Origin: Fomes fomentarius
Taxonomy: Eukaryota > Basidiomycota > Agaricomycetes > Polyporales > Polyporaceae
Assembly (NCBI GenBank): GCA_022606135.1
Contig: JABYQN010000013.1
Location: 682,001 to 746,000 of the forward strand
Direction: 5' to 3'
Length of the DNA stretch: 64,000 bases
Of this stretch, positions 28,170-56,333 are shown in pieces. The notes under the pieces were generated by a model. It was not told where the DNA came from, did no database searches, and saw only the letters and a program-made list of their open reading frames with translations. The translations under genes and the position numbers were made by a program. Numbering within the stretch: the first letter of the stretch is position 1; every line of letters begins with the position of its first letter.

Positions 28170-29351
28170 TCAATCATCCACCTGTCGGCAGTTGCCTTCC
28201 CAGATATGAACCAGCAACTCGTCGGCCTCTGCCGTCACATCCACCCACTTCTTCGCGACCCTAGGGTTCGGCATCGTCTCGAGCGTCGCGATGCAGAACC
28301 GGTCTCCCGCCCACGGGCCCTTCACCAAACGCTCCTTGCACTCCTTGCCACAGACCATCGAGATGCTGTCATCCGTCGACCAGCAGATCCGCGACAACAG
28401 TGCATGCACGAGGCCGAGCTGCGCCTCCCAGTTGGCCTTGACGTCCACCCACCACTTCATCTCGCTCAGCCGGTCCTCCCGGACGTACTCCGCCTTCGAG
28501 AGGTTGCAGAGCACGGGCACGCCGCCTTCGCGGAACCGAGGCGGGGCGGAGTTGAATGCGTGCAAGGTTTCGAGCATCTCGAGCTCGAGCAGGCGGCGAG
28601 GGCAGCCCTTGCACGCCTTGCGCAGCTCCAGTAGCGCCGTCCCGTGATCGTGTTGTGCCCCATACCACTTGTTCTCATGGGTGATCGTGTGTCTGTCCTC
28701 GTATATCTCGACTGCGTACAACGACAAGGTCATCTTCCCAGGCTCGATGTAGTCGAGCTGAGGGATCTCGGCCGTGGCGATTTGCTGGAGCTCAGCGTCG
28801 GTGAGAAGGCCCTCCGGAAGTGCGGCGTCGCTTTCCGTGTATTGTCCCAAGTAGATGAGTCGCCCGCCGGCCCACGGTGCGTAGATCGCTTCTAGCTTGC
28901 GTAGGAGATGCGGCTTGGCGACTTCGAGCACGGACTTGCACGTGGTCGCGAACCATAGCGCGGCAATGTAGTTCGTCCTGATCACGTCGCGGAAGACCAT
29001 GTCGAGAAGTTCAGGGGAGAGCTTCCCCAGAGGGCCCGGCTGGAGCGCGCGGGGACCTCTCTCCAACCAGGTGTTCACTTCTCTGCCGAGAGCGATGTTA
29101 GACAGCAAGTTCATCGTGTTCGCTATCTCGGCATGGTCTGAGGGAGCAAGAACACATACGTACCGTGGAAGTGCTCTCAGTGTGAGGGCGTCACGAAGGC
29201 TCCAGAAATCGTCAAAGAAGCACTCGCCCAATTTACAACCCGCAACGGGACTCTGCTCTTTCCGGTCGATGTTGAGCCTGTGGTATGTACGTGAGACAAG
29301 GTACAGAGGAGGGCGAAGTTGACCAACTCACAAATCCCAATTCTGACCCAT
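28170..29351 (-). CDS. F-box-like protein, MGQ family, 348 aa, intact
   Basis: Exons: 29351-29332 (20 nt, MGQNWDL-), 29277-29164 (114 nt, LNIDRKEQSP and KLGECFFDDFWSLRDAL), 29082-28170 (913 nt). Phases agree, and the first two exon sizes equal those of all other family members here. F-box: PLGKLSPELLDMVFRDV with FATTCKSVLEVAKPHLL, about residues 60-105. Next are IYAPWAGGRLIYLGQY, LPEGLLTDAEL, then the C-terminal core VLCNLSKAEYVREDRL, HALLSRICWS, VKGPWAGDRFCIATLETM, KKWVDVTAEADELLVHIW. Likely an SCF adaptor with a lineage-specific recognition domain (inference from the F-box). It is the most complete non-array member and a useful outgroup for the tandem copies. Confidence 0.88.
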
Positions 29352-31439: not shown

Positions 31440-33417
31440 ACCATTGATGTTGCGCGTACGGACAGACAGTCGTGCCTGAAAGGGGATCGCTGAATGATAC
31501 CAGTGAATACGACGGCAGGGATATTGTGAACACAGAGAGGGATCGTTACTTGGAGACAATGGGGAATTTCATCTTTTTTCTTTCAAGCAAATCCTCACAG
31601 ACGTGACAAAGAACACTCAAGTAAGATCCCTCTCGTTGCCCATCATTCTGGCAACAGTCTGTGCCGATCGGTATACACATAGTACGGCTGAATGCTGTCG
31701 GCGGACATACGGCCTAAAGGTCCACCTCAGATGACTCTGTAGTGCTACCAGCAAAAACCTCTGGTAACACCCCAGAGGTTATCCATTACGCAACGCAAGG
31801 TCTCGAAGGGAGAAGGCACTGAGCACCCACTCGAGATTGGATGGGCATGGTCACAGTCTTCTCGTACGCGTTGTGTACTCTTGTCGTGTCTTGTGGATGG
31901 AGGCCGATACGCGTTTGCTTGGCTGACCAACTGGTGGTAAGTCGACGTTGAGAAATGAACCTGGCAGTGTACGCGGAAGTTGTCACTGTGTCGGAATGGA
32001 AGGTGTCAACGCGTAAGTCACGCCTGCGCAACGCGTCGCGTAACAGCCGTAACAGGGCCAGGCGCCTTGCGCGCAGACTCCTCCTCGTAACTCTATGAGG
32101 TTTCGACGCTGGCCAATGGCCGTTGGCCCGTCTCTACCGTCTCCGAGTCCTTGCTCGCTCATCGTGACACTGCCGGTCAGGTAAGTGTCACTGTAATACT
32201 CTTCCACGGACAAAGTTTTATCCCTGTTGTACTACCCACGCCACCAACCGGAATGAAAACTGGCAGCTTCGCCCCAGCTACCGACTTAGTCGCTCGGAGT
32301 GGGGTCCTAACTTGTGCACGAGTTTGCTGGAGTAGGGTATGTCCCGAGTACGTACCCGCAATGCTCTCCAACTACGTTGCTCGTTTCTCACATGTCAGTG
32401 AAGGTACTGCGATCGCACAATTTTGAGCCTAGACTCTCGCTTCAAGTTTTGGAGGTGGGAGAGCACAACTCGGAGCTCATCGAGAGCTGCGCATCCGAAC
32501 AGACTTGATGCAGCTCAAAGCAGCTACCAGGTATGTGTCTATCGCTCGCGGAACAGTCGGTTATTGTTGGACGCAATGTATCGAGGTGCACTTGAATCCT
32601 TCCTGCATGCTATGTGACGGTGGCACCACAGGCAGGCAACATGACGAGCCACAGGTGAACCTGAGCAGGGTCGTCCTGAACGTAAGTTTGAATTACCCCG
32701 AACACAATTCTGAAGATATCGAGAGCGCATTGGCAATCTGACGCACTCCGCGCACCGCCAGATTTTACACCAGGGTATAGTACTTAGGCGTGCCATGTGA
32801 GCGATATTGACCTATCGCGTGATTATTGACTGCCTACCATATAGTCTGGTTTCCGTCTTTCCACTCAGTCCTTTGACCGTCATAAACTCGCTGATACAAG
32901 AGTGTCACGCTCGCAGGCCTACACCTCCGCCACTGTACCGTTACTGCGTTTGCTACTCATGCACAGACAGCTATCGAACATATAGAGCATTCACAATCAA
33001 AGTAGACGAGATACATAGGTGCTTATGCAGGTACTATGTCTAGTGTGACAAGGTACGTTCTCTACGTTCTCCTGCTATCGTACATCATGTACATCGCTCG
33101 GACACCGAGTACGCCACACGCATCCTGCGGCAATTCGGAAGCGCGTGCCGTGAAGAGAAGACAGAAGTAAAGAGAAGGCAGAAGGGGGTGTGATGTCCTC
33201 CGCGCGAAGGGGGCCCATCGCGGTTGCGGACGGGGGGCTGCGCGTTATGGCAGCTACTCCCCATGTGAGTTCGCATACCCTCGTCACATCCTGAATTATG
33301 ATCGACATTGCCTGCAGCCATGTCATGTCCTCTACGCCGCCTATAAAGGGGAGACCTGGCAGCTCCAGAACTCTCAGCTTACTATCCCGCATCCCTCACT
33401 ACCACGCCTATACCTCC
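31440..33417. promoter_or_regulatory. Upstream region of PX-chitinase A with TATA box
   Basis: No gene is supported in these 2 kb. TATAAA at 33342-33347 lies 76 nt before the ATG (33418). The equivalent TATAAA lies 83 nt before the ATG of copy B, so core promoter geometry is conserved although most of the spacer has diverged. Confidence 0.6.
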
Positions 33418-35658
33418 ATGGCCATCTCTGCCGCCTCAGTCGTTGGACACATCACCGCCTCCGTCCCGAGGCCCCATATCCTCTACACTCTCCATCTCGA
33501 GGCGACGGACGGGTCGACTCTTACCCTCTCGAAGCGCTATTCAGAGGTATTCATCCATCACATGCTGTGGGTATATGCGCGCCATCTCATCACAACCTCG
33601 CAGTTCGTCGCTCTCCATGATGCTCTCAACGATCCCGGCACTCTTCCACCCAAGCGCATCCTCGCAACGACCTTCGTACCCTCCGCTTGGGCGGACGACA
33701 CCCTCATTGCTGAGCGCAAGGCTGGCCTTTCCGCATATCTCACCGGACTTCTCGAGTCGCCCCAGTTCCGCAACCACCAGTCCTTGACCGACTTCCTCGC
33801 GCCTTCCTTGTCCACTTTGTCCTCTCGCGAGTTCAACCCTGAAGACGCTATACCCTCCACTCTTTCGCGCAACACCGCGTTGAATCTGGCCGCGGATCTC
33901 CATGGCGATGTTTTCGCCAAAGCAACGCCTATCGCGGCTGCCTACTACCCGGACTGGGCTGCTGACAGTAATCCGCCGAACAAACTCGATTTCTCCAAGT
34001 TTGACATTCTCTATTTTGGTACGTCCACCCGTTACGAACCTAATGGTGCCGTGCAACGCAATCGCACAGCCCTGTAAACGCTATCATGAGCGCATGTATG
34101 CCAGAGTCTAACACGTCTCACTGTGTCCAGCGTTTGCAACTCCGAATTCATCGTCGGGGGTCTCCTTCGACTCCGGCTCGACCTCTACGCTCAAGACGCT
34201 CGTCTCGAGCGCACACAAGAGTGGCAAGGGCACTAAGGTCGTGCTGTCCATTGGTGCGTTTCATCTCCATCTCTCATATTTCTCATACTCAATTGTCGAC
34301 ATGTTTCGAACATTGCAGGCGGATGGAGCGGTTGCAAGTGGTTTTCTCAGACTATGAGCAGCGCAGCGAACCGCACGACGTTTGTCAATGCGTGCGTCAG
34401 TGCAGTCAACACGTACAGCCTTGACGGTACGTGCTTCCAAATCAATATCAACGTGATTGTCTGACGTTCCGCAGGTATTGATATCGACTGGGTACGCTTG
34501 TGTGACCCATACTACGTACGTCATTGTACACTAATACGGACACCTATGCTGTTTTGACAGGAATACCCCAACGAGTCTGGCGCCGGGAACCCGCACTCTA
34601 CGAAAGACGCTGCTAATTTGCTTTCGTTCTTCAAGTCATTGCGCACCGCGCTTGGTTCATCCAAGATCATCTCTGCCGCCGTCACGCAGCTCCCTTGGAC
34701 CGGCCCTAACGGTAACCCACTTACCGATGTCTCCGCCTACGCCGAGGTCATGACCTATGTCAACATCATGTCAGTCCGACTCTTTCTCATGCTCTCGTTG
34801 TTGTTCACTCGACTACCTCTCACTACAGGAATTATGATGTGTGGGACGCATCCTCCGGCCCAGGACCAAATGCACCGCTCGGGAACCTCTGTGGAAACTC
34901 CTCCCAACCGCAATTATCCGCCCAAGCCGCTCTCTCGCAGTGGACCAAGGCCGGGTTCCCGAAGAACAAACTCGTGCTCGGCCTCCCGCTCTATGGGTAT
35001 GTCTCGAAGAGCACGAAGACAACGATCCACCGGAACGCCATCCCGCCCGCTGGGTTCGACGTCCAGGATTACAAGGAACAGGTGCTGCAACTCCCGAACC
35101 GCGGCCTGTCCTGCCCGCTCCCACAGATAGAGGAAGGTCAGGACGGAGAGACTAAGGAGGAGGAGAAGCCGAACCCGCTGCGGGGCGCCCATGCGCGAAG
35201 CAAGGTCAAGCTAGAGGAGGTCAAGGCTTCGGCGGCAGGAGACCTCAGTAGCTTCTTCGGCCAGCAGATCGCGTTCAACCAGCTCCTCTCGATGGGTGCG
35301 CTCAAGAAGAACTCGGACGGGACGTACACTGGGGCGAACGGGTACACGATGGGTGAGCTTCTTCGTATCGATCAGTCATTCATCGATTGACAATGACTAT
35401 AGCTTGGGACGACTGCAGTGATACACCGTTCCTATTTAACAAGTCGCGCCAGACGGTCGTCACGTACGATGACACGCGGTCTCTGGGCGATAAGGCGTTG
35501 TTTGCTAAGCAGAACGGCATGGGTGGCTGTTTCACGTGGTCGCTCGACGAGGTAGATATCGATTGGTCCAATTTCCTTGAGACTAGGATGCTCAAAGATG
35601 TGTCTAGGACGATGGTGTCGCGCTCCAGAACGTCATCCGCAAGAACCTAGGCAAGTAG
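33418..35658 (+). CDS. PX domain-GH18 chitinase fusion, copy A, 574 aa
   Basis: Nine exons with matching phases: 33418-33546, 33604-34018, 34131-34253, 34319-34426, 34475-34491, 34561-34769, 34829-35352, 35403-35551, 35608-35658. Residues 1-about 130 form a PX domain: GHITASVPRPHILYTLHLEA, the PI3P-contact motif KRYSEFVALHDAL, the loop LPPKR, and ERKAGLSAYLTGLL before LTDFLAPS. From about residue 160 a full GH18 barrel follows: IAAAYYPDW, KVVLSIGGW, the catalytic motif DGIDIDWE (258-265, Glu265 the acid), NIMNYDVWD, LVLGLPLYGYV, WDDCSDTPFLF, MGGCFTWSLD and DDGVALQNVIRKNLGK. There is no signal peptide and no chitin-binding module. Known biochemistry: GH18 hydrolyses chitin, PX binds phosphoinositides on endosome, vacuole or vesicle membranes. 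The combination suggests a membrane-docked intracellular chitinase (inference). Confidence 0.92.
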
Positions 35659-36160
35659 GCTTCTGGCCCGGTATGTTTCAATATCTGCGACGTACACAGT
35701 ACCGCGTCCTATCACGACGTTCTATGACTTGACACGCATGACCTTCCGCACCCGCATCCCTCTCGAGCAACATTGTCTTACTAGTAATACCGGTACACCG
35801 CTTTGTACAGCGTAATCACTGTCTTGTACTATCAAATACACGATTGTATCAAGTTAAGTTCAACCTAGCTTTTGCACCAGATAGTGCAGTGGTCGGCAAG
35901 TGTGATGGTAACACTGGCAGTTCAGGTAAGGTACCTCGGCATATGGGCCCCTACTCTTTACGCGCTTATGTTCGTATTCAGATTGTGACGGCTCTGCTCC
36001 CGACCACTACCTCATACTTCGTCCTACGCATCCAGCTCACCTGTTCACTTTTCTGCTCTGCGTTCCTTTCGGACGACTAATTCTGCTGGCAGCACCAACT
36101 CGACCCACTACCCCACCTTCCGACTCCCAAGCCTACTAACCAGCAACATGTGATGTTACT
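35659..36160. other. 3' flank of PX-chitinase A, no supported gene
   Basis: Noncoding, alignable in patches with the 3' flank of copy B (about 40955-41500). Nothing else is seen. Confidence 0.55.
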
Positions 36161-36447
36161 TACCAGCCTGTACAATGACTGGCAGGAGGAGAGTTCCGAT
36201 GTAAGCGGGAAGCTAGGCATTTTTTTCTTCGACTCCTTCCGACTCTTTCGCTAGGCTCCTTGAAGCCCTCAGGCTTCCTACTTTCTCGAGGTATGCAAGT
36301 TTACTCTCTTCTACTTCTATATCGAAGTTGGCTGACGGTGACTGCTCGCCTCTCAAAAGTCCGAGTGCAGCCGGGCGACTGCGCTGTCCAGCGTGGGCAG
36401 CTACTGTCATGCGCTTTGGGCCAAGCGCGGCTGAATATCATGATGTC
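36161..36447 (+). pseudogene. Remnant of an MGQ-family F-box-like gene
   Basis: About 36161-36290 aligns with exon 2 and the following donor of the array gene at 42619 (CAGCCTGTACA, GGGAAGCTAGGC, TTCTTCGACTCCTT, CTTGAAGCCCTCAGGCTTCC). Then GCGACTGCGCTGTCCAG and CTGTCATGCGCTTTGGGCCAA match exon 3 with the F-box part deleted between them. It stops there. This shows that the ancestral order was PX-chitinase followed by F-box gene before the 5-kb duplication. Confidence 0.65.
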
Positions 36448-38730
36448 AGGCGAGTGAATTGAGAAGCAAGTGCCAACTCGGGAAAAGCAGGGGCGGCTCT
36501 GTAATTTGGTGTTGTTTGAGGATGTGGATGACAGGAGGGTCTGGGTGGCAGCTGGTAGCGACGTCGATCATATTGCTGCGCATACGGACAGTCGTGCCCG
36601 CAAGGCGAGCGCTGGATAGTGCTGGTGAACACGACGGCCAGACGTGACAAAGGACACTCAAGTAACAGCCCTATAGCCCCCCTCAACCAGGCTGGCGATG
36701 TAGTACCTTTGGGCTGCCGTACTTCCGACAGCGTTCAGCCATACTAAGTATGTATGCGTCTATCGCGCTGTCGTCCCGATCGGCACAGGACTCTGTGATG
36801 CCACCAGCAAAGACCTCTGGTAACACCCCACAGCCATGCATCACGAAACGCAAGGTCTCGAAGGGAGATGAAGCATCTGAGAACACACTCGAAATTGGAC
36901 GGGCATGGGCCTGGGGTAGTCTTCGAGTTCAATACGGCGCGTTCTACGTCTTGCGGCCCGCAAAGACCGATACGCGTCTGCTTGGTTGATCAACTGCTGG
37001 TTAGAGCAGAACGAAGAAGAAAGTCGACGTTGAGAAGCGTTGAGAAACGAACCTGGCTGTGTACGCGGAAGTTCAAGCTCAAGGGTGGGGACTTGGAATG
37101 GAAGGTGTCAACTTGACGCGTAAGTCACGCCTGTGCAACGCGTCCGCGTAACAGCGCTTAACAGCAAGGCGTCTACTGATATAAGTAGGCACGGAAGATT
37201 TCCCCCCTTTCCACGCCGACCATCTCGATGTGCATCCTCCTAATATTCCGTGTCTTGCTTGCTCCTGTCAGTCATGTCAGTTGTGACCGCCACGATGCGT
37301 TCCCATGAACAAGGTACATTCCTGTTGAACCGAAGTTTCACACCATTCAACTGCAATGAAAACTGGCAGTTCACCTCATCATACCAACTTGGTCGCTCGG
37401 AGCGGGGTCCTGGGGATGCCGCTAAAGTGACGTATGACTACCGTCTGTCACGAGTACGTACCGCGCCATGCTACGTTGCCCAGTTTCTCTCATGTCAGTT
37501 AAGGTGCCGCTACCGCGCATTTTGCAGCATGCTTCCGTCTACACTCTACCTCGTGGTGCTTTCGGAGGCGAGTGTGCACAACACGGAGCTCATCTAGAGT
37601 TGCGCATCCGAGCGAGCTTGATGCAGTTCTGTCAAAGCAGCTACCAGGTATGTGTCTATCGCTCGCGGATTCGACGCGGAACGTTCGGTTATGCCCGTTA
37701 TCGTTGGAAGCCATCCATCGAGGTGCACTTGAATCCGTGTATATTAATAGTGATCTAGGCTTGAGTTCATCCGACATCGGCAGTCTGCGGGGAATCTTGA
37801 CTTATTGCATCCGTCCGCTGCACTGGCAAGCGCAATGCATATTATTCAGGTGACGTCGCTACATTCAACCTCACGGTCGACGTCTGCATACGTAGCATGA
37901 CGTTGAATAAACTTGGTGCAGAGTGTAGCACATGGGCCGCGAAGGAGCAGGCACATTAAGGGGGAGGTCTCCATTTCCGGGGTGGGTGGCTTCTATCTGT
38001 GATCGCCTCTCGTACGCGTCCTCCGCTGGTCTTGTGCTGATTACACAGCATGGTCACCATCACTAGAAGCCTCTGTCATAAAAGGTGCGTTTCTCCTTCT
38101 AGTCTTGGTGTGAATGTGAGATAGACTTCTCCCGCTACCACACCGGTCATGCGGATAACGCGATACCGAGCGCAACATCCAAACCCCGGGGTTGCCCAGG
38201 TCATATGCGCAGCTCCGCGTAAGATGAACGTTAGCTCGGCTCGGAGGCGGTAGTGTGACCATGACAATCGCACCCACGGCTGCTTGCAAGATCCCCAGTG
38301 CAGACCATATCGGACGCTGTCTCTCGTTGGACCTGTCCAACTGTGCTGTTATCGTATGCAGGTATGTTTGGCACAAGGTACGCTCTCTGCGTTCCTCACT
38401 ATCGTACGCTCGGAGACCGACTACGCCACACACTTCCTGGAAACACGTGCCGTAAAACGAAGACAGAAGGGGGGAGTGATATCATCGAGTGCCTCTGCGC
38501 GAAGGGAGCTCGCTCGCGGTCGTGAGCTGGGGCTGCGCGTTATGGCACCTGCCTCCCATGTGCGTCCGCCATCCCCTCGTCACATCTTAAACTCTGATCG
38601 ACATTCCCTTTCGCAGCCATGTCTGTCTTCCCCTAGACATACCCCCGTATAAAGAGGTGGGGCCTAACAGCTCCTCAGTTCCCAGCCCGCCATCCCCCGC
38701 ATTCCTCATTACCACCACACCTATACCCCC
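36448..38730. promoter_or_regulatory. Spacer and upstream region of PX-chitinase B with TATA box
   Basis: About 36570 onward aligns with 31440 onward of copy A. No gene is supported; frames such as 38041-38433 (-) and 38284-38652 (+) overlap and have no domain. TATAAA at 38648-38653 lies 83 nt before the ATG at 38731. Confidence 0.6.
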
Positions 38731-41600
38731 ATGGCTATCTCTGCTGTCTCTGTCGTTGGCCACACCACCGCCTCCATCCCGAGGCCCCATATTCTTTACA
38801 CTCTCCGTCTTAAGGCGACGGATGGCACAACTTTCACCGTCTCAAAGCGCTATTCAGAGGTATCCATCCCGCGCTCTGACTAGTATATGCGCGCAATCTC
38901 ATCATCATCTCGTAGTTCGTCGCTCTCCATGATACCCTCAACGACCCCGGCACTCTTCCACCTAAGCGCATCCTCGCAACGGCCTTCGTACCCTCTGCTT
39001 GGCTGGACGACACCCTGATCGCCGAGCGCAAGGCTGGCCTTTCCGCCTATCTCACTGGACTGCTCGAGTCGCCCCAGTTCCGCAACCACCAGTTCTTGAT
39101 CGATTTCCTCACGCCTTCCTTATCCACGTTGTCCTCTCGCGAGTTCAATCCTGAAGACGCTATACCCTCCACCCTTTCGCGCAAGACCGCGTTGAATCTA
39201 GCCCATGGCGATGTTTCCATCGAAGCAACGCCTATCGCTGCTGCCTACTATCCGGACTGGTCTTCTGACAGTAACCCGCCAAACAAACTCGATTTCTCCA
39301 AGTTTGACATTCTCTATTTTGGTATGTCCGCCCATTCCCCACACCGAACCTAATGGCGCATTCGCGCTATGCCTGTGCAACGTCATCGCAGAGCCCTGGA
39401 AACATCTGACACGTCTCATGTCCAGCGTTCGCAACTCCGAACTCATCTTCGGGGATCTCCTTCGACTCCGGCTCGACCTCTACGCTCAAGACGCTCGTCT
39501 CGAGCGCGCACAACAGCGGCAAGGGCACTAAGGTCGTGCTGTCCATTGGTGCGTTTCATCTCCACCTCGCAAACATGTCGTATCTTCATATTGACATGTT
39601 TCGAATCTTACAGGCGGATGGGGAGGTAGCACGTGGTTCTCGCAGGCTATGAGCAGCGCAGCGAACCGCACGACGTTTGTCAATGCGTGCGTCAGCGCAG
39701 TCAACACGTACAGCCTTGACGGTATGTGCTTCCAAATCATGATCTACGTGATTGTCTGACGTGTGTGGATATGCAGGTATTGATATCGACTGGGTGCGCT
39801 GGTGTAGCCCATGCTACGTGCATCATTGAACGCTGATGGGTATGCTGTTTTGACAGGAATACCCCAACGAGTCTGGCGCCGGGAACCCGCACTCTACGAA
39901 AGACGCTGCTAATTTGCTTTCGTTCTTCCAGTCATTGCGCACCGCGCTTGGCTCGTCGAAGATTATCTCTGCCGCCGTCACGCAGCTCCCTTGGACCGGT
40001 TCGAACGGTAGCCCGCTCACCGATGTCTCCGCCTACGCCTCGGTCATGACCTATGCTAACATCATGTCAGTCCGGCTCTTTCTCATGCTCGGTTATTATT
40101 CACTCACCTCGCGTCTAATTTAAGGAACTATGATGTGTGGGGCGCATCCTCCAGCCCAGGACCAAATGCACCGCTCGGGAACCTCTGCGGAAACTCCTCC
40201 CTCCCGCAGTACTCCGCCCAAGCCGCTCTCTCGCAGTGGACCAAGGCCGGGTTCCCGAAGAACAAGCTCGTACTCGGCCTCCCGCTCTACGGGTACGTCT
40301 CGAAGAGCACGAAGACGACGCTGCACCAGATAGCCATGCCGCCCGCCGGGTTCGACGTCCAAGCGTACAAGGAACAGGTGCTGCAACTTCCGAACCGCGG
40401 CCTGTCCTGCCCGCTCCCACAGATAGAGGAAGCCCAGGACGGAGAGACTAAGGAGGAGGAGAAACCGAACCCGCTGCGGGGCGCCCATGCGCGAAGCAAG
40501 GTTAAGCTAGGGGAGGTCAAGGCTGAGGCTGCGGGTGACCTCAGTAGCTTCTTCAACCAGCAGATTGCGTTCAACCAGCTCCTCTCGATGGGCGCTCTCA
40601 AGAAGAACTCTGACGGGACGTACACTGGGGCGAACGGGTACACGATGGGTGAGCTTCTTCGTATCGATCAGTCAATCATCGACTGACAGTGAGTATAGCT
40701 TGGGACGACTGCAGCGACACGCCGTTCCTGTTCAACCAGTCGCGCCAGACGGTCGTCACGTACGATGATACGTGGTCTCTGGGCGATAAGGCGCTGTTTG
40801 CGAAGCAGAACGGGATGGGTGGCTGTTTCACGTGGTCGCTCGATCAGGTGGATATCAATTTCTCCATCTTCTTTGAGAATAGGGTGCTAAAAGATATGTC
40901 TAGGACGACGGTGTCGCGCTTCAGAACGTCATCCGCAAGAACCTGGGCAAGTAGGCTTCTGGCTCGGTATGTCAATATCCGCGACGTATACGGGATCAAC
41001 ATCACTTCATATCACGATCACGACGTTCTATGACTTGTCACGACCTTACATACGCATTCTGCACTCACCCCATCCGCACACGCATCCCTCCCGACCAACT
41101 AGGTGGCCCATTTACCGATACACGGCTTTGTACAGTTTGATCACTGTCTTGGATCCAAACACATGTTATTGTTCAACCTAGCTTTTGCACCAGACAGTGC
41201 ACCCAGTCTGATGGTATTGTCCGTCGGAACAGGCAAGTTACCTCGGTTCTAAGTTTGCGCGCTTATGTATGTTCAGATCCTGACTCTGCCCGACCTCCTA
41301 ACTGCATCCTGTGCACCAGCTATTCACTTTCTGCTCTGTGATCCTTCCTGATAACTATCTCTGCTACTGGGAGCCCTAATCGACCCCTAACCCGCCTTCG
41401 AGCCTAACCAGCAACAGGTTCAACTCTAACCACGAGATTCGCTTCTGAACCTCAACCGCTTGAGATTGCATCAAACCTAGGATTTGTGAGTGATTCATCA
41501 GATGAGCGAGGAAGCAGGGAAGAAGCTAGGCGAATTCTCATTCGACATCTTCACCTAGCTTAATCAAGCTCTTCGATTCACGATCCTTCCAAGATATGTA
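36570..41600. repeat. Segmental duplication, copy B (about 5 kb)
   Basis: Partner of 31440-36450: same block order, including the promoter, the nine-exon PX-GH18 gene, its 3' flank and an F-box debris. Its last part (from 40933) is also the start of the first 8.9-kb tandem unit, so the tandem amplification came after this duplication. Confidence 0.75.
38731..40954 (+). CDS. PX domain-GH18 chitinase fusion, copy B, 571 aa
   Basis: Nine exons at the same positions as copy A: 38731-38859, 38916-39321, 39426-39548, 39614-39721, 39777-39793, 39857-40065, 40125-40648, 40699-40847, 40904-40954. All exon lengths equal those of A except exon 2, which is 9 nt shorter (NLAHGD versus NLAADLHGD), so the frame is kept. 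PX landmarks (KRYSEFVALHDTL, LPPKR, ERKAGLSAYLTGLL) and the GH18 landmarks (DGIDIDWE with Glu262, GGWGGSTWFSQ, FTWSLDQ, DDGVALQNVIRKNLGK) are intact. The changes from A are mostly silent or conservative, which points to selection on both domains. The last 22 bases (40933-40954) are also the first bases of the tandem unit. Confidence 0.92.
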
Positions 41601-42334
41601 TTTGCGGATGATGACCATCGAGTTGAGCCGTTCGTCTGGAATGCAACCCGGGCGTGCGACAAAGCATACGGAACGCTGGCGAGGGATTGGCTGAAATGCT
41701 TGGACTACGCGGATATGGGGAAGACGATGCGCCTGGAGCGAGCTCGACAAGCCGCCGGAGCGGGTTCTCGAGCTCGAGATGATCGACACGCTCTGAGTCA
41801 TCTACACCCCGCTGCGGTAGGCGGACTGGACTTCCGAGTCGAAGGAATCCCGGTGCTGTTGCAACCTGTCGAAGGGGGAGTATGTCAGGCACGGCTGACG
41901 GAGATGGCGTGGTGCAGCGGGGCTTGGGCTTAGGCCTTGGCAGGCCTCAGAGGGAGTCCGACTGTGGGCGTAACGGGATGCGAAGAAATGATGGAGGGTG
42001 CGAGGTGCTGCAGGCATCAGGGTATCGTGCGACAAAAGTACGAGCGTGCGGAATACGACAGGCAGGACTGATGAGCGCGCTGTTGGCGCCGCGGGTGTGT
42101 TGGTCGCCGAATGCTGCCAGTGTCAGTGAGAGCATCGAGATGCCAGAGTGTGGGGACGAGTCACGGTGGAGGGAAGGGGAGAAGTTGGTCAAGGGCCCGT
42201 GGATGGGGGATAGGTCTTGCGTTGTGCCAACGTTGGAGACGATGTGTCGGAGGAGGTGGATGAGATGCTCGTTCACCTTGCTCAGGTTAATGGGCAAGGT
42301 TGAGTTGCATTCGAGCATGGACTCTGTGCATTAA
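41502..42334 (+). pseudogene. Decayed MGQ-family F-box-like gene, unit 1
   Basis: Starts with a relic of exon 2 (KKLGEFSFDIFT, then a stop, ILPRYVFADD), lacks the F-box, and keeps scattered core pieces: a region like RVEGIPVLLQPVEGG for VLCNLSK-E, RLTEMAW, GLMSALLAPRVCWSP, and KLVKGPWMGDRSCVVPTLETM in frame in this copy. In this copy the run at 42205-42209 has five G, which keeps GPWMGDR in frame; copies 2 and 3 have four and lose it. Too broken to encode an F-box protein. Confidence 0.7.
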
Positions 42335-42618
42335 TCTAAGCCACGACAGTTTGTGTTTATTTGTCCCAGCGCGATCCTCGCTTCGCTCGCAACGAGCTGG
42401 AAGGGCGCTAAGGGCGACACAACTTGCTCCTGACCAGTGACCACTAGGTCTGTGCGGTTTGCCTACTCCCCCTGCTCATCGTGTTGGTCTTTCTGCTATC
42501 GCAGAAGCTTGGGCGCAGTCATTTGGAAGCTATATTGTCCTCCGCCAACGCGGCCACGTGATTGTCAAACACTGGCTTCAACCTACCGTGTCCGAGAACC
42601 GCGTACCTCTCTGCCAGG

Positions 42619-43755
42619 ATGGGTCAAGACTGGGAGCTGTGAGTAACACATCTATGACATGGATTCTGCTCTGGGTGGCTGAGGTGACGGTACTCATCAG
42701 CCTGTGCATCGACCGGAAAGAGAAGAGTCCCGAGGTAGGCGGAAAGCTGGGCGAATTTTTCTTCGACTCCTTCTCTAGCCTACTTGAAGCCCTCAGGCTT
42801 CCTATTCTCCCGAGGTATGTGAATATACTCCTATAATCGAAGTTGTCTTACGGTGATCGCTCGCCTATCAATCAGCGAAGTCGAAACCTGGTTGAAGCGA
42901 GGCGACTGTGCGCTCCAGCCCGGGTCACTCGGAAAACTCTCTCCGGAGGTCCTGGACATCATCTTTTGGAACGTCTCAAGTGTGCAGGATGCCGTCCGGT
43001 TTGCGATCACCTGCAAACTTCTTCTCGACGTGGGACAACCGCACCTTCTGCGTTTACTGCAAGGCTGTCATGCGCCTTGGGCCAACGCGCGGCTGATATG
43101 TCTGGGACGGGACACCGATAGGAACGCGGATCTTCCACCGGACCTTCTCACCAAGGACGAGCTGCATCAGGTCGTCACCTGCGTGCACCCTCACGTCCTC
43201 GATTGTCTCGAGCCTGGTCAGGAGCCGCACTTCGCATTAGTTGCATGCGAGACGTATAAGAACAAGTATGGGACCACGAGTTATCACGCGCGCACGGAGT
43301 ACTACGACGAACTCAGCAGACTGCACGAGGAGGCTGCCGCCAATCCCAAGCTCGCTCTCGAAGTCAAGATGTACAAGGAGCTCTGCATCTTCTCTGTCAC
43401 CGGGCCAGCTTACCCGCCGGGCGCACTCGTGCTCTGCAACCTATCCAAGGCGGAGTACGTTAGGGAGGATCGCCTGAGCAAGATGGTGCGGAAGATACAC
43501 GGATGGGTAGAGGAGTTTGGCCTCATGCACGCGCTGTTGTCGCGGATCTGTTGGTCGGTGGACCCCAGCATCTCCATGTGCTGCGACAAGAAGTACAAGG
43601 AGCGGCTCACCAAGGGCCCCTGGGCAGGAGACCGGTTCTGTGTCGTTACGCTGGAAACAATGCCGCGTCCGAACGTTGCGAAGGAGTGGAAGGACGTGAC
43701 GGCAGAGGTCGACAAGCTCTTGGCTCACCTTTGGAAAGTCAATACGGAGAAATGA
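42619..43755 (+). CDS. F-box-like protein, MGQ family, 337 aa (unit 1, gene 1)
   Basis: Exons 42619-42638 (MGQDWEL-), 42701-42814 (LCIDRKEKSPEVGGKLGEFFFDSF, read as LCIDRKEKSPEVGG and KLGEFFFDSF), 42876-43755. F-box SLGKLSPEVLDIIFWNV with FAITCKLLLDVGQPHLL at about residues 62-105. Then CHAPWANARLICLGRD, LPPDLLTKDEL, VACETYKNKYG, and the C-terminal core VLCNLSKAEYVREDRLSKM, LMHALLSRICWS, LTKGPWAGDRFCVVTLETM, EWKDVTAEVDKLLAHLWK. Complete and splice-consistent. Probably a substrate adaptor of an SCF ligase. There is no TATA box; the leader is CT-rich. An identical gene sits in units 2 and 3. Confidence 0.9.
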
Positions 43756-44227
43756 GCAGTCGCCATTCCGCAGACGAAGCCTCTGATTTGAGCGTGGCTT
43801 TGTGTTTAGAAGGCTGTAGACTATGGTGGCCCGGGTAGAGTACTGCGTCGATATAAGCTGCCGACGGGCGATTCGGACCCGTAGTCTTATAATCTGCGTG
43901 TTCATTGTTTGATGTTGTTCATGTAGCGTTTGTCAATTGTGTGACTTTCGTGGCCTATTGTGCGACTAATTAGGCAATATCAACCAAGTCACATAAGATG
44001 TGGACAATGAGCGCCAGTGTACAAAACGCAACTTACCCCGCAACCATCACTTCACCTCCTACCTCACCTCACGGTCGTACACTCGCTCCCCTGATCTCTC
44101 TACCCCTGATCTCTCTACTTTGAATCCGTACACTATCCTCAATCCCAGAACTCGACAACGTGATCGATCGTTGACTTGCGAGTCTAACCACGACAAACCA
44201 CCAGTCACTACATCGTTCCAAGTAATC
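43756..44227. other. Spacer and promoter between F-box genes 1 and 2 (unit 1)
   Basis: Noncoding. The part before the ATG at 44228 is CT-rich with a direct repeat CCTGATCTCTCTAC (about 44090-44118). The same sequence recurs in units 2 and 3. Confidence 0.6.
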
Positions 44228-45380
44228 ATGGGCCAGTCTTGGGATCTGTAAGTATTGCATGCTGGTATATTGTGTATGTTGCTGATGTGATTGCTTGTCG
44301 CGGTGTGTATCGAAGCCTCAATATCGACGACAAAGAGAAAAGCCCTGAAATTTGTGGGAAGCTATTCGAATGCTTTTTCGAGACCCATCCATCGCTTCTC
44401 TACTCCCTCCGCCTACCTGTCCTCCCTCGGTACGTATATCACTTGTGTGCTTTACCAAACGGGACGTCAACCCGCTAACACTGCCGCCTCCTGACTGCAG
44501 ACAAGTCGATACTTGGCTGAGGACCGGTAAACATGCGCGCCAGCCGGGACCTCTCGGGAAACTCTCGCCCGAGCTACTCGACATGATCTTTGACAACATC
44601 TTCTTTTTTTGGGACATCATCCAATTCTCCATAACCTGCAAGCTCACCCTCGAGGTTGGCAAGCGGCACCTCCTCTCAGCACTACGGCGATACCATGCGC
44701 CCTGGGCTGGCCAGCGACTCATCTGCCTGGGAGGCGATCCACTGGACTCTGACCTCCCTAAGGGTCTCCTAACGCCCTTTGAGCAGCGCGAGATCCTCAC
44801 CTCAGATATCCCTATTGCCCGCGAGTTGAGGCTCGCTGGGGAGGAGATGTATCTCGCGATATATGCTTGCGAGACATACCTTTCCAGGTACGGGACGCTC
44901 GGCCGTGCTGACCGCCTCCAGCGGGACTACTGGGAAGGCATGCGGAAAAAGCGCGAGGAAGTCAAGGATCACCCTCAGTCGAACCGGGATCTCGACATGT
45001 TCCACGCGTTGTACATCTACAGCAAGCCGACCTACCCCAAAGGTTCTCTCGTGTGCTGCAATCTCTCCAAGGCCGAGTACATCCGGCAGGACCGACTTCG
45101 CAAGATGGAATGGGAAGAGAACTGGCAGCGCAACCGCTACAAACGGTCGCTAGGCCTCGCGCACGCCTTGATCGTACGTATCTGTTGGTCAGGGGATTCC
45201 CCGCTGTACGGTGCAAAAGGAATCAATGAGCAGCTCGCCAAGGGACCCTGGGCAGGCGACCGCTTCTCTATCACGACCTTGGAGACGATGCCGCAGCCGA
45301 AAGATGCAAAGGAGTGGAAGGATGTGACGGCAGAGGTCGATGAACTCTTGTTTCGTATCTGGGAGTACTTCTTCCAGTAA
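44228..45380 (+). CDS. F-box-like protein, MGQ family, 337 aa (unit 1, gene 2)
   Basis: Exons 44228-44247 (MGQSWDL-), 44316-44429 (LNIDDKEKSPEICGKLFECFF, read as LNIDDKEKSPEICG and KLFECFF), 44501-45380; sizes 20, 114 and 880 nt equal those of gene 1, so the two arose by duplication and then diverged. F-box PLGKLSPELLDMIFDNI with FSITCKLTLEVGKRHLL. Core: YHAPWAGQRLICLGGD, LPKGLLTPFE, LVCCNLSKAEYIRQDRLRKM, AHALIVRICWS, LAKGPWAGDRFSITTLETM, EWKDVTAEVDELLFRIWEYFF. The middle variable part (Arg/Glu/Lys-rich) differs strongly from gene 1, as expected if it contacts the target. Intact. Confidence 0.9.
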
Positions 45381-46181
45381 TGAGTACACCCGGAGTATCT
45401 GAGGACCCGCGTACGTTCAATAGTCATGACTTTCAGCTAGATGTTGGCTCTGAAGTGTTCGATCAAAGCACGCTGCTCAATTCTAGTCTCCTTTTGTATG
45501 ATCTCAGATGGATGTGGGGAAGAATATTCGGGTGATGACTCGAATTGTAGTGTTTCGACGTTCAGGACCTTGGGCAGTACACTTGATTACGCTGGCACTG
45601 GCAAGGGACTGTATGACACCGAGGGCTTGCGTACTAGCCCAGTATGTAACTTTGATGTATAGTGCAAGTAGACTGTAGCTGTAGAGCATTGGTGGTCAGT
45701 AAGTATTGGGGATCATCCATCATCAGATGAAGTGTTGCGTTTGGCAGACCGGGCAAATGTCACGGCACATAACACTGCCAGGGCGTGCGACTTCCTTTTT
45801 TCCTCTGAAAGAATTCTCTACGATATCATATTCTAGTCCCGCGTTTCTCTCTTTATTCAGAGCCTCCCTGTCCTCAGCCGGGGGGGTAGGCTGAAGGTCG
45901 CCGCGCCGCTCTGAGATTGGTCACAGCAAGTCACAGACATCACATCTGTTACGATTACATCAGTTCACGCGGGCCCCCCTATTATTCTCAGACTCCCGTC
46001 TTCTAACGGGACCACTTATCCTCAACGCCCGAGACTGGACCACGGTTTTCTCAGCAAGCCATCGTGATCCGAGTCGGCCACATATAACCAGAACACGCGC
46101 CGCTTCTCTGCAGACCTGCTCCGAACAAGGCACTGTTGCAACCGCGCAGTCGTCTCCAGTATTATCATACGAGTAATAATC
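45381..46181. other. Spacer between F-box genes 2 and 3 (unit 1)
   Basis: Noncoding; contains the seven-G run (45880-45886) that is six in unit 2. No gene is supported. Confidence 0.6.
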
Positions 46182-47363
46182 ATGGGTCAATTCTGGGTCC
46201 TGTTTGTATTCAAACCGCTTCCTCCGTCGGTTGCGATATGTGTTAACAATCCTTGACAGTGTGAACCTAGATCGCAAAGAAATTGAACCTGGCCCCAGCA
46301 TAGTAACATCGCAAGCTGGGGGAATGTTTCTGGGAAAGAGAAGGTAGTCTGAAGTCACTGCTCACCATCCCCTATCTGCCCCAGTGCGTCTTTTTGTGTT
46401 TCTCCTTGGGGCTACGTTTTCTTACGAGCGATTTGGTAAAATAGTCAAGTCGACAAGTGGCTAGCAGCAAGTCGCACGGTCGTTCAGCCTGGCCCCTTCG
46501 GACGGCTACCCGTCGAACTCTCGGAATCCATCATAGAAGCTGAGGTGACCGACTTCGACGATCTCGTCGTTTTTGCAATATCGTGCAAGCGGTTGCTGAG
46601 TATATGCAAACCCTATCTCCTGCGCTTTATCAGAGAACGACACGCCTCTTGGGTTGCATGTCGTTTGATTTGCATTGGCGACCACGCATCGAAATCAAGG
46701 TTGCCAGCGGATCTTCTGGCAAAAGAAGAACGGGCAATCATGAAGATGGATCGGGTACTAGCAGACGACGACGTCCCGGTCGATTACGAGGAAGAAGACG
46801 AGGGACACGATATTCTCTACATGTATGCCCGGAGGTATTGCGACCGTGCCAAGAGAGTCACACCCAGCTACCAGCGCGGCCGCTACCTCTCTCCCTCCGA
46901 ATACTGCTCTCTCGCCGCGTACAAGTCCAGAAAATCAGGTGGCGCAGACGACTCCGAGCTCGACGCACGCTATGCTAATCTGGAGAGGTACAGAACACTA
47001 GTTGACGAGGTGTCATACGCTGTTGGCACCGAGGTTGTGTGCAACCTGTCCAAGAGGGAGTACATCTCCACTGAGCGCCTTTACCCTTCAATGCACCTCC
47101 GGGTCGAACACGCCCTGCTCTCGCAGATATGCTGGTCGGAAGACCAGGATGTCTCGATAATCTGCTCTAAACAGGTCGCCCATCAACTCGTCCACGGACC
47201 TTGGGCTGGCGACAAGTTCTGCGTCACCACGCTGGAGAGCATGCCATCGGCAGAAGGGAGAGAGTGGAAGCACGTGTCGGCACGCGCGAACAAGCTGTTG
47301 TACCATCTGTGGAAGTACGCCAGGTTGCGGCAAAAGCTGCCGGTCTCTGGTGACCCGGAATAG
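46182..47363 (+). pseudogene. F-box-like gene 3, MGQ family, exon 2 out of frame (unit 1)
   Basis: Exon 1 46182-46201 (MGQFWVL-; donor gtttgt is weak), exon 2 46260-46383, exon 3 46445-47363. Exon 2 is 124 nt instead of 114. It begins VNLDRKEIEPG but the conserved RKLGECFWERE lies one frame off, with TAG and TAA in front, so the full protein cannot be made. Exon 3 is open for 305 codons: QVDKWLAASRTVVQPGPFGRL with PVELSESIIEAEV (F-box), ISCKRLLSICKPYLL, ASWVACRLICIGDH, LPADLLAKEE, VVCNLSKREYISTERL, EHALLSQICWS, LVHGPWAGDKFCVTTLESM, EWKHVSARANKLLYHLW. A protein starting at an internal ATG (46545) would lack the F-box. Damaged gene or N-truncated variant. Confidence 0.75.
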
Positions 47364-47449
47364 ACCTCAGAGCATGAAAACTAGGCAATGCTACAAGGAG
47401 ATCAGTGAATGCATCCTAATCTGATGAAGTGCGTATTGACGCGACCAAT

Positions 47450-47954
47450 ACAGGGTTGCCCCCGACTCTACTGACACAAGAAGAACGGGAGCACCTGAAA
47501 GGAGTAGAGGAAGACCCGGTAAGCGGTAGCAGCGGCGTATACGAGATGCGCCTGCATCTGTATGCGAGCAAATACTGCGGTGACCCTTCTGACTAGTACT
47601 TGAACGGGCGGTACTCCGTCGAGCGGAGAGTACACCGGGGCAGCGGACGCACCGGTTTCGCTCGAGTCGATCTCAAGAAATTCGCGGGGATCGCCTGGAC
47701 GCTGCGATGATGCGAGACCGCACTATCTGCCTCTCAACACGCCCCGCTCTCCCAGATCTGCTGATCGGATGAAGGGGAGCATCTCGATGCGGTGCCATAC
47801 GGACGCTGCCCGGCAAGTGCTCTGGGCCGGAGACAGCTTCAAGTTCTGCATCACGACGCCCGATAGGATGCCTCCTCCGGTACGGGGACGGGAGTGGAAG
47901 GATGTGTTGGCGCGCGTCGATAAGCTCCTGTATACCCTCTGGAAGCACAGGTGA
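47450..47954 (+). pseudogene. F-box-like gene remnant, 3' part (unit 1)
   Basis: Reads LPPTLLTQEEREHLKGVEED, MRLHLYASKYCGD, a stop, then out-of-frame pieces, then SISMRCHTDAARQVLWAGDSF, CITTPDRMPPPV, REWKDVLARVDKLLYTLWKHR up to the stop at 47954. Closest to gene 3, but multiply broken and without F-box or exons 1-2. Confidence 0.7.
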
Positions 47955-49819
47955 ATGGCGGAGGTGACGACTAGGGGGGGCTCAGGGCGAGCGCGTTCGA
48001 AGAGGTGAGCTGGGCTATGCCTACGGCGCAGTGGTCATTCCGGTCCGTGTTCTGATACTAGTACTACTACTCAGTGGTAGGCATTCGGTAGAACGGCCGG
48101 CGCGGACGGCGACACCGTATAAGGTTTCCGGTTTCGGACTTCCTACATCGTGACTTGTACGTGCTCCACTGAGGTGCTAGGCATCAGGCTGTATGCGATG
48201 TCCGATCCACCGAGTGCCCGACGGGCTCCGAATGCACTGCGCGAGCGGCGTCGGGGGGCCAAGAGCCGAGACAGCCTAGCGGTCGAGTCAACACAATGAA
48301 TCTGATACTAACCTCGTTCTCCGCGCTCAGGTCACGGTGCTGTGCGGGCCGCCCTCCCCGCCTGGCCTGAGGCTGACCACGTATTGTGGAGTGAAGTCAC
48401 GCCCAAGCGTTGCGATGCCACGTTTTGCGTTTCGCGAACGCGCCGCTAACACCGGTCGGCGGCGGCGGCGGCGGGCGCTGTGCTTCCAGACTCGGACGGC
48501 ACTAGGGGTTGTTGCGACTTGAGATGACAGTGGCCAAGGTCCACTGCGGTGGGTGATGTTCGCGTTCTTCGCATGCATGTGGCCTGTGACGCACAGTCCA
48601 CTCGAACAGACGTGCATCGCTCAGGCCGTGCCACGTTCAACATCATCTCATTATGACTGCGTCACCGTGGCGATGCTCAATTCTATGATATGTATATGCT
48701 GCAGCGTCTATCGTCGAAGTATATGATGCAATGCAGGCCCCACATGGCGTGCGATCCAAGATGTCAAGACACCTACTAAAATGCATGATATGTCTGGGAC
48801 AGCTCACCTGTCACGGGTCCTTTGCTCAATTCCGTGACACGTAGACTGCCCTTGATATCTGGGTGCCAGGGTACGAGAGACCGCTGGTTGGTTGAACTTG
48901 GGAGATGCTTCATAGTGGTTTGATACCGTGACGATGGCACGGTCCACAGTACTTGCCAGTGCCTATACTCTCGGGATCGAGTCGGATCTCATCCATGATT
49001 GTGAAGAATCAGAAGGACATTGGCAATGGATACCCACCGAGCATCGCGAACGACGAGAGCTGGGCAGTGGAGGTTGCACTAGTAGATGATGCATGCAGTG
49101 CAAGCAAGGAGACAAACAACTGAGGCGCTGTGGAAGACGCGATGGATGGGATCACCAATGGACACCCCCTCCCTGATTCAGATAAAGCTTGATTGCTCAA
49201 GAAGCACTACTGGGAGTCGCAGTCGAGATGATGTATGCGTTCGGCCTGCAAGGTCAGGTCAGCAGGCAATGCCAGTTGAATCCAGCGGAAGCTTTTACCA
49301 GTGTTGATGAACTCGCATGGTGCCAAACTCAAGGAAGGGGATACAAGACAAGGATGACCATTGATAATACCTGCACGGCTAGTACGAAGCGGCGCAGGAA
49401 AACTAGTACGGTACGCAGTGCATATATGAACAAGATCCGGCCGACGAGTGAGTACTCTGGCGTACGTGTGATAGCTACAGTGGGTGTATGGGGATGGGAT
49501 GAGTCAGACTGACTTAAGAGACTAGGACTACAGTAGTTTGACTAAGCGTAATGCTGTCCGAGAGGAACGCGAGGCAATGATAGATGATCTATGGAATGAA
49601 AAGCGGGCATGGAGGTCGATACGAGATAACGGGGTACGGGATGGGGTGAGAGATGGGATGATGAGATTGGTATAATGAGATGGTGAGATGGACTGCGAAC
49701 GGGGGAACGGGAGTGCGATATGGGAGAAAACGGACAACAGCGGAGGGCTGCAGACGACGAGAGCGAAGCACGAGCCATACTTATGGATAAATAACGTGTC
49801 CAAGTGTCCGAATAAACTG
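47955..49819. other. Noncoding right end of unit 1
   Basis: About 1.9 kb without a supported gene. It holds a GGC triplet run (about 48458-48475), the seven-G run at 47974-47980 and a purine-rich stretch of GATGGGRTGAG-like words at about 49625-49690. Ends at the junction with unit 2. Confidence 0.6.
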
Positions 49820-50388
49820 CCGCAAGAACCTGGGCAAGTAGGCTTCTGGCTCGGTATGTCAATATCCGCGACGTATACGGGATCAACATCACTTCATATC
49901 ACGATCACGACGTTCTATGACTTGTCACGACCTTACATACGCATTCTGCACTCACCCCATCCGCACACGCATCCCTCCCGACCAACTAGGTGGCCCATTT
50001 ACCGATACACGGCTTTGTACAGTTTGATCACTGTCTTGGATCCAAACACATGTTATTGTTCAACCTAGCTTTTGCACCAGACAGTGCACCCAGTCTGATG
50101 GTATTGTCCGTCGGAACAGGCAAGTTACCTCGGTTCTAAGTTTGCGCGCTTATGTATGTTCAGATCCTGACTCTGCCCGACCTCCTAACTGCATCCTGTG
50201 CACCAGCTATTCACTTTCTGCTCTGTGATCCTTCCTGATAACTATCTCTGCTACTGGGAGCCCTAATCGACCCCTAACCCGCCTTCGAGCCTAACCAGCA
50301 ACAGGTTCAACTCTAACCACGAGATTCGCTTCTGAACCTCAACCGCTTGAGATTGCATCAAACCTAGGATTTGTGAGTGATTCATCAG

Positions 50389-51219
50389 ATGAGCGAGGAA
50401 GCAGGGAAGAAGCTAGGCGAATTCTCATTCGACATCTTCACCTAGCTTAATCAAGCTCTTCGATTCACGATCCTTCCAAGATATGTATTTGCGGATGATG
50501 ACCATCGAGTTGAGCCGTTCGTCTGGAATGCAACCCGGGCGTGCGACAAAGCATACGGAACGCTGGCGAGGGATTGGCTGAAATGCTTGGACTACGCGGA
50601 TATGGGGAAGACGATGCGCCTGGAGCGAGCTCGACAAGCCGCCGGAGCGGGTTCTCGAGCTCGAGATGATCGACACGCTCTGAGTCATCTACACCCCGCT
50701 GCGGTAGGCGGACTGGACTTCCGAGTCGAAGGAATCCCGGTGCTGTTGCAACCTGTCGAAGGGGGAGTATGTCAGGCACGGCTGACGGAGATGGCGTGGT
50801 GCAGCGGGCTTGGGCTTAGGCCTTGGCAGGCCTCAGAGGGAGTCCGACTGTGGGCGTAACGGGATGCGAAGAAATGATGGAGGGTGCGAGGTGCTGCAGG
50901 CATCAGGGTATCGTGCGACAAAAGTACGAGCGTGCGGAATACGACAGGCAGGACTGATGAGCGCGCTGTTGGCGCCGCGGGTGTGTTGGTCGCCGAATGC
51001 TGCCAGTGTCAGTGAGAGCATCGAGATGCCAGAGTGTGGGGACGAGTCACGGTGGAGGGAAGGGGAGAAGTTGGTCAAGGGCCCGTGGATGGGGATAGGT
51101 CTTGCGTTGTGCCAACGTTGGAGACGATGTGTCGGAGGAGGTGGATGAGATGCTCGTTCACCTTGCTCAGGTTAATGGGCAAGGTTGAGTTGCATTCGAG
51201 CATGGACTCTGTGCATTAA
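50389..51219 (+). pseudogene. Decayed MGQ-family F-box-like gene, unit 2
   Basis: Copy of 41502-42334 with one G fewer in two runs, so the GPWMG motif runs into a different frame. Otherwise identical by eye. Confidence 0.7.
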
Positions 51220-51503
51220 TCTAAGCCACGACAGTTTGTGTTTATTTGTCCCAGCGCGATCCTCGCTTCGCTCGCAACGAGCTGGAAGGGCGCTAAGGGC
51301 GACACAACTTGCTCCTGACCAGTGACCACTAGGTCTGTGCGGTTTGCCTACTCCCCCTGCTCATCGTGTTGGTCTTTCTGCTATCGCAGAAGCTTGGGCG
51401 CAGTCATTTGGAAGCTATATTGTCCTCCGCCAACGCGGCCACGTGATTGTCAAACACTGGCTTCAACCTACCGTGTCCGAGAACCGCGTACCTCTCTGCC
51501 AGG

Positions 51504-52640
51504 ATGGGTCAAGACTGGGAGCTGTGAGTAACACATCTATGACATGGATTCTGCTCTGGGTGGCTGAGGTGACGGTACTCATCAGCCTGTGCATCGACCG
51601 GAAAGAGAAGAGTCCCGAGGTAGGCGGAAAGCTGGGCGAATTTTTCTTCGACTCCTTCTCTAGCCTACTTGAAGCCCTCAGGCTTCCTATTCTCCCGAGG
51701 TATGTGAATATACTCCTATAATCGAAGTTGTCTTACGGTGATCGCTCGCCTATCAATCAGCGAAGTCGAAACCTGGTTGAAGCGAGGCGACTGTGCGCTC
51801 CAGCCCGGGTCACTCGGAAAACTCTCTCCGGAGGTCCTGGACATCATCTTTTGGAACGTCTCAAGTGTGCAGGATGCCGTCCGGTTTGCGATCACCTGCA
51901 AACTTCTTCTCGACGTGGGACAACCGCACCTTCTGCGTTTACTGCAAGGCTGTCATGCGCCTTGGGCCAACGCGCGGCTGATATGTCTGGGACGGGACAC
52001 CGATAGGAACGCGGATCTTCCACCGGACCTTCTCACCAAGGACGAGCTGCATCAGGTCGTCACCTGCGTGCACCCTCACGTCCTCGATTGTCTCGAGCCT
52101 GGTCAGGAGCCGCACTTCGCATTAGTTGCATGCGAGACGTATAAGAACAAGTATGGGACCACGAGTTATCACGCGCGCACGGAGTACTACGACGAACTCA
52201 GCAGACTGCACGAGGAGGCTGCCGCCAATCCCAAGCTCGCTCTCGAAGTCAAGATGTACAAGGAGCTCTGCATCTTCTCTGTCACCGGGCCAGCTTACCC
52301 GCCGGGCGCACTCGTGCTCTGCAACCTATCCAAGGCGGAGTACGTTAGGGAGGATCGCCTGAGCAAGATGGTGCGGAAGATACACGGATGGGTAGAGGAG
52401 TTTGGCCTCATGCACGCGCTGTTGTCGCGGATCTGTTGGTCGGTGGACCCCAGCATCTCCATGTGCTGCGACAAGAAGTACAAGGAGCGGCTCACCAAGG
52501 GCCCCTGGGCAGGAGACCGGTTCTGTGTCGTTACGCTGGAAACAATGCCGCGTCCGAACGTTGCGAAGGAGTGGAAGGACGTGACGGCAGAGGTCGACAA
52601 GCTCTTGGCTCACCTTTGGAAAGTCAATACGGAGAAATGA
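51504..52640 (+). CDS. F-box-like protein, 337 aa (unit 2, gene 1)
   Basis: Exons 51504-51523, 51586-51699, 51761-52640. The protein is identical to that of 42619-43755; see that entry for domains. Flanks are identical too, so if the array is real, expression should scale with copy number. Confidence 0.9.
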
Positions 52641-56247: not shown

Positions 56248-56333
56248 ACCTCAGAGCATGAAAACTAGGCAATGCTACAAGGAGATCAGTGAATGCATCC
56301 TAATCTGATGAAGTGCGTATTGACGCGACCAAT

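Follow-up and report, generated by a model that had tools for sequence, protein, structure and literature searches.

Does a fungal chitinase carry a phosphoinositide-binding PX domain where a signal peptide would be expected, and what would such a domain do there? The question is raised by two genes of the polypore Fomes fomentarius, here called chiA and chiB, located in a 64,000-nucleotide stretch (the window) that is part of contig C13 (976149 bases) of the 40.9-Mb genome. An earlier note on this stretch had proposed that both genes join a PX domain to a complete chitinase barrel of glycoside hydrolase family 18 (GH18). We find that the fusion is real in both copies, and that it is shared by relatives across the Agaricomycetes.

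Architecture of chiA and chiB

The two genes are arranged in tandem on the forward strand, with every intron bounded by GT and AG. Both proteins match the Pfam models for PX (PF00787; E-values 4.3e-10 and 1.7e-10, 40.4 and 41.7 bits versus a curated cut-off of 21.6) and GH18 (PF00704; 4.8e-56 and 9.1e-58, exceeding the curated cut-offs). The Pfam and homologue searches, as well as the motif comparison with RmChi1 of Rhizomucor miehei, used preliminary models of 590 and 616 amino acids in which the last intron was read through; these differ from the final models at the C-terminal end only (36 residues of the 590-amino acid version). The four motifs on which the domains had originally been recognized (KRYSEF, LPPKR, ERKAGLSAYL, and DGIDIDWE) are each present in both proteins. 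The last of these, at residues 258–265 of chiA, corresponds to the DxxDxDxE catalytic motif, which both proteins have.

In a fold search with the full-length model, the matches listed were GH18 structures only, and the PX region was therefore modelled alone. Its model and fold matches in the Protein Data Bank (PDB) show a three-stranded sheet plus helices, bearing out the PX fold predicted for the N-terminus. The GH18 part forms a triosephosphate isomerase-type (TIM) barrel in the model, and its fold matches are headed by a structure from an active chitinase family. Two further sequence features were observed, with conservation counted over 139 PX-bearing sequences that include chiA and chiB, as in all such counts below. 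An EDALPSTLSR-type motif in the chiA linker (residues 123–132, within 33604-34018) exceeds the rest of the linker in conservation (E123, 119/139; P127, 133/139; R132, 121/139). The barrel contains a poorly conserved insertion of low model confidence (residues ~405–475 of chiA, within 34829-35352), inside which lies an L-x-G-A-H-x-R motif (G453, 112/139; H455, 114/139; R457, 110/139).

The domains are joined in one frame, as the earlier note had it, but the join sits within exon 2 rather than at a splice site. Introns 1 and 2 of chiA interrupt the protein at residues 43.0 and 181.3, respectively. Exon 2 (residues 44–181) therefore covers the latter half of PX, all of the linker, and the beginning of GH18, so that splicing can part the domains only by skipping it. 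The splice points predicted at 33546/33604 and 34018/34131 are exact in the final models, and the predicted end of the pair, 40954, is the end of chiB. Exon sizes, said to be the same in both copies, are equal for eight of the nine exons and differ for exon 2 (415 versus 406 bases). Intron 1 of chiA (33547-33603) is 57 bases in length and stop-free, and its retention would be in frame, adding 19 residues before PX helix 1; intron 1 of chiB is 56 bases.

Distribution, origin, and divergence of the fusion

With residues 1–150 as the query, PX and GH18 occur together in all 69 homologues listed. Those with an organism name (six have none) range from Polyporales and Agaricales through Auriculariales, all of which we take to be Agaricomycetes. 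A PX query from Exidia gave both domains in 15 of the 15 matches listed, with no match outside Agaricomycetes among these. The GH18 part as query yielded 1098 matches, of which 120 were listed, and Pfam recognizes both domains in 108 of these; among the other 12, PX is recognizable by eye in P0079 and P0142, cut in P0114 and P0115, and missing from eight. The protein database was clustered at 90% identity, and chiB has no entry of its own among the matches listed. Eight full-length PX-GH18 proteins of 543–630 amino acids (P0023, P0032, P0057, P0059, P0075, P0104, P0109, and P0146) are encoded on contigs of 1849–2196 bases and have zero net extra residues around all eight exon junctions. These frames look like spliced transcripts, and are presumably complementary DNAs. 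The search for this domain combination in other fungi, suggested in the earlier note, thus found it widespread among Agaricomycetes. As judged from these sequences, the fusion is conserved throughout the group and appears to have been kept since early in it.

Profile searches of the genome gave at least 14 PX matches and at least 29 GH18 exon matches at ~15 loci, with PX and GH18 together at chiA and chiB only. The starts of eight other GH18 genes were judged by eye, a survey covering the loci other than four at C4 and one at C10. Seven starts are signal-peptide-like (C1, four at C9, C5 near 1068000, and C6), the eighth (C5 near 2233000) is signal-anchor-like, and none of the eight genes has a PX domain. 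By this comparison, PX in chiA and chiB stands where the other genes have a signal-peptide-like or signal-anchor-like start, in support of the earlier note.

The best other genomic match to a profile of the PX family belongs to a 365-amino acid protein at C2 (53.6 bits; next, 30.4), in a comparison of single-exon open reading frames in which intron-split PX domains scored too low and an unsplit Vam7/Yup1-like PX is favored. The C-terminus of this protein is SNARE-like (PDB matches to SNAP29, 1.7e-5, and syntaxin 8, 3.6e-5), while Pfam detected PX only in it and no SNARE domain. Structure matches to its PX domain are led by SNX24 (9.3e-10), with Vam7 lower (7.3e-6); we call the protein Vam7/Yup1-like by its architecture. 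As the nearest PX within the genome, this PX-SNARE conserves the RRYSEF, PPK, and ERR..GL motifs, but it has a C-terminal SNARE motif and no enzyme part.

In a FastTree phylogeny of 153 GH18 domains, with an outgroup of four GH18 genes from this genome only and rooted on three of them, the PX family is grouped in a single clade, to which the C6 gene is sister (support 0.89). Eight PX-less tips fall within a 17-tip clade (support 0.92) alongside nine PX forms. We rejected the PX-less forms as ancestral, since tips nested inside a PX-containing group point to derived losses of PX. Of these eight tips, P0121 is a truncated N-terminal fragment on a contig of 1493 bases; a clear signal-peptide-like start occurs among the other seven in P0083 only, which appears from its sequence to have gained it. 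Some of the PX-less protein starts may be misannotated. In three cases, a PX-less and a PX protein of the same species are found on contigs of equal size (P0084/P0088, P0050/P0089, and P0021/P0090), which suggests linked duplicates.

Purifying selection acts on both parts of the fusion. The chiA and chiB proteins are 91.8% identical (synonymous divergence dS, 0.23), with ratios of nonsynonymous to synonymous divergence (dN/dS) of 0.19 overall, 0.20 for PX (bootstrap 0.09–0.39), and 0.23 for GH18 residues 153–404. The earlier note had argued for selection from old divergence of the spacers, and conservation across Agaricomycetes is the better evidence for it. The old divergence is overstated: although 975 bases of upstream spacer are down to 67% identity, the pair itself is not deeply old, given its protein identity, its dS, and its position in the tree, where the two copies pair with support 1.0 and Daedaleopsis/Epithele split off before them. 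The genes might, however, look younger than they are through gene conversion. chiA and chiB are a lineage-specific tandem pair of an already known PX-GH18 kind. Among 47 amino acid differences polarized with seven outgroup proteins, 25 fall to chiA and five to chiB, with 17 unassigned, making chiB the conservative copy.

Proposed phosphoinositide docking and its alternatives

In HMMER alignments, R40, Y41, K60, and R81 of chiA align with the PX domains of SGK3 and SNX24, and we assume for them the lipid-pocket roles of the corresponding residues in p40phox. Position 40 is R in 138 of 139 sequences (one gap), position 41 is Y in 132 and F in 6 (one gap), position 60 is K in 133, R in 5, and N in 1, and position 81 is R in 138 and S in 1. 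The PX domains of chiA and chiB are thus predicted to contain a basic/aromatic 3-phosphoinositide pocket (R-Y, PPK, R).

We propose that chiA and chiB may be leaderless GH18 enzymes with a built-in phosphoinositide anchor, a proposal to which we give an even chance of being right. Early in the Agaricomycetes, a PX domain resembling most that of a Vam7/Yup1-type SNARE of endosome or vacuole would have been fused with a GH18 enzyme of class A, replacing the signal peptide. The protein would be synthesized in the cytosol and dock through its PX pocket on membranes of the phosphatidylinositol 3-phosphate (PI3P) type, whether endosomal, vacuolar, autophagic, or septal. From there the enzyme would get to chitin either by way of the vacuole or autophagic compartments and autolysis, or through unconventional export to septa or autolysing hyphae.

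A possible parallel is the phosphoinositide binding that serves leaderless Cts1 at the septal zone of Ustilago maydis. For this chitinase, which has no signal peptide, such binding has been tied to localization and export (PMC12167484, PMC7358432). Unlike in chiA and chiB, the binding by Cts1 is ascribed to no named domain in these accounts, Jps1 acts in trans, and phosphatidylinositol 4,5-bisphosphate, PI(4,5)P2, is preferred; both Jps1 and Cts1 bind this lipid, with the PX domain of Yup1 as the PI3P control (PMC12167484). The accessible text of that paper, in which the phrase 'PX domain' was not found, also describes a GH18 chitinase of Hebeloma cylindrosporum without a predicted signal peptide; two PX-GH18 proteins of this species are among those listed (P0025 and P0140), and we infer a link to that chitinase. 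Tentatively, and by analogy, PX-GH18 might do in one chain the job of Cts1 and phosphoinositide-binding Jps1, the SNARE-derived PX steering a leaderless chitinase to phosphoinositide membranes of septa or vacuole for non-classical delivery.

Work on a PX-chitinase of Phanerochaete chrysosporium is reportedly due to Karlsson, Stenlid and Lindahl in 2016. The architecture, of which the earlier note knew no described example, is indeed already in print: two sentences in PMC8097845 mention PX-domain chitinases of Ganoderma boninense and P. chrysosporium, by their wording GH18 with PX, and cite the P. chrysosporium protein as chitinolytically inactive. These sentences hold no pocket analysis, origin, or mechanism, and Fomes differs in having a tandem pair. 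Our homologues include PX-GH18 proteins from Ganoderma and Phanerochaete species (P0007, P0017, and P0080). Neither 'px domain' nor 'phox' appears in the accessible main text of PMC8042737 or PMC2614207.

The cited inactivity is the strongest of several facts that weigh against a docked chitinase. In addition, the PPxxK membrane loop (residues 62–73) has low model confidence, and crude hydropathy gives the N-terminal hydrophobic stretch of both proteins a score similar to that of weaker signal peptides. The Ustilago analogy may also be loose, as binding there is to PI(4,5)P2 whereas this type of PX predicts PI3P.

The GH18 part might retain PX docking without being a chitin hydrolase in the cell, acting instead on another N-acetylglucosamine substrate, as an endo-β-N-acetylglucosaminidase (ENGase) or chito-oligosaccharide enzyme, or as a glycan-binding scaffold. 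To our knowledge, chitin is not expected in the cytosol. We keep this alternative as a possible though rather doubtful one, on account of the cited inactivity and of a YGY sequence in the chiA/chiB family (in an alignment of 70 sequences, Y391 is kept in at least 90%) where RmChi1 has YGR, which might alter specificity. The RmChi1 chains (5xwf, 5yuq, and 7fbt) cover residues ~76–445 only, so that a PX domain is unseen or absent there. ENGase models do give weak matches, but far below their cut-offs; the top fold match is to a chitinase, and the catalytic residues are nearly invariant (D261, D263, and E265 each in 138, Y336 in 137, D337 and W554 each in 136 of 139).

Some PX domains bind proteins or have no lipid affinity, and PX might no longer bind lipid here but mediate protein interactions of, or stabilize, a chitinase that is either cytosolic or secreted by an unconventional route. 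The invariant, family-specific W72 (139/139) and P69 by the loop are consistent with this, but we consider it unlikely given the pocket, with R40 and Y/F41 in all 138 sequences that have letters there, and K/R60 and R81 each in 138/139. It is very improbable that the N-terminus directs the enzyme into the endoplasmic reticulum as a signal peptide, with PX as a relic: the nine-residue hydropathy maximum of chiA (2.07) and chiB (2.33) approaches that of four secreted-type relatives (2.39–2.57), and a value of 2.0 is attained by 24 of 137 proteins of the PX family, but the family median is 1.47, the models show the hydrophobic stretch as strand 1 of PX, and the pocket is conserved family-wide. 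Finally, an artefactual fusion of two separate genes by gene prediction, conceivable in that database gene models are predictions too, was rejected as having almost no chance of being true, because the join lies within a single exon in both copies, all 69 homologues listed are fused, and the eight short-contig frames have no insertions at their junctions.

The locus and its significance

Coordinates of the two genes and associated features in the window.
Feature	Position	Strand	Description
chiA, PX-GH18 gene	33418..35658	+	nine exons, 574 amino acids; protein identical in every letter to P0001 (Fomes fomentarius GH18)
chiA exons	33418-33546, 33604-34018, 34131-34253, 34319-34426, 34475-34491, 34561-34769, 34829-35352, 35403-35551, 35608-35658		
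chiA PX domain	33418..33804	+	residues 1-110, exon 1 and start of exon 2; PF00787, model, PDB fold matches
chiA linker	33805..33930	+	residues 111-152; conserved EDAxPSTLSR-type motif, residues 123-132
chiA GH18 domain	33931..35658	+	residues 153-574, exons 2-9; PF00704, model, RmChi1 match
chiB, PX-GH18 gene	38731..40954	+	nine exons, 571 amino acids; by homology to chiA, 91.8% identity
chiB exons	38731-38859, 38916-39321, 39426-39548, 39614-39721, 39777-39793, 39857-40065, 40125-40648, 40699-40847, 40904-40954		
TATAAA	33342..33347	+	76 bases 5' of chiA ATG
TATAAA	38648..38653	+	83 bases 5' of chiB ATG

The genes lie in an older tandem duplication that includes the upstream spacer (31733-36120 versus 36789-41399; 81.5% identity in the gene part, 67% in the spacer). 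Same-species PX-GH18 pairs, probably linked as judged by contigs of equal size, occur elsewhere (P0024/P0102, P0033/P0110, P0025/P0140, P0098/P0143, P0122/P0128, P0095/P0101, and P0100/P0112), and a 19-tip group in the tree gathers many second copies of these Agaricomycetes pairs. A near-identical tandem repeat of ~8.88 kb (40933-55140 versus 49820-64000, 99.5%) overlaps the last 22 bases of chiB. Genome-wide, a probe taken from this repeat gave three long matches, each of them at this place, and the repeat is either a recent duplication or an assembly artefact. Two long open reading frames, 28170-29327 (-) and 42823-43755 (+), the latter inside this repeat, are F-box-like by eye (LSPELLDMVF and LSPEVLDIIF); Pfam gave no match to either up to an E-value of 0.1.

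chiA and chiB thus represent a true fusion, conserved in Agaricomycetes and already mentioned in print, to which Fomes adds a tandem pair. How leaderless chitinases of basidiomycetes are targeted to membranes and exit the cell has so far been studied through Cts1 and Jps1 of Ustilago, and a canonical PX domain on a chitinase opens the targeting question to point mutagenesis of a familiar kind of lipid pocket in laboratory mushrooms. If the enzyme is inactive, a set of annotated chitinases found throughout the Agaricomycetes needs a different function. If docking is true, it would account for the retention of PX in this GH18 clade where its relatives have signal peptides. On the more tentative one-chain reading, the protein would be an enzyme of the cell wall whose address is a lipid code rather than a signal peptide, retained since early in the Agaricomycetes.

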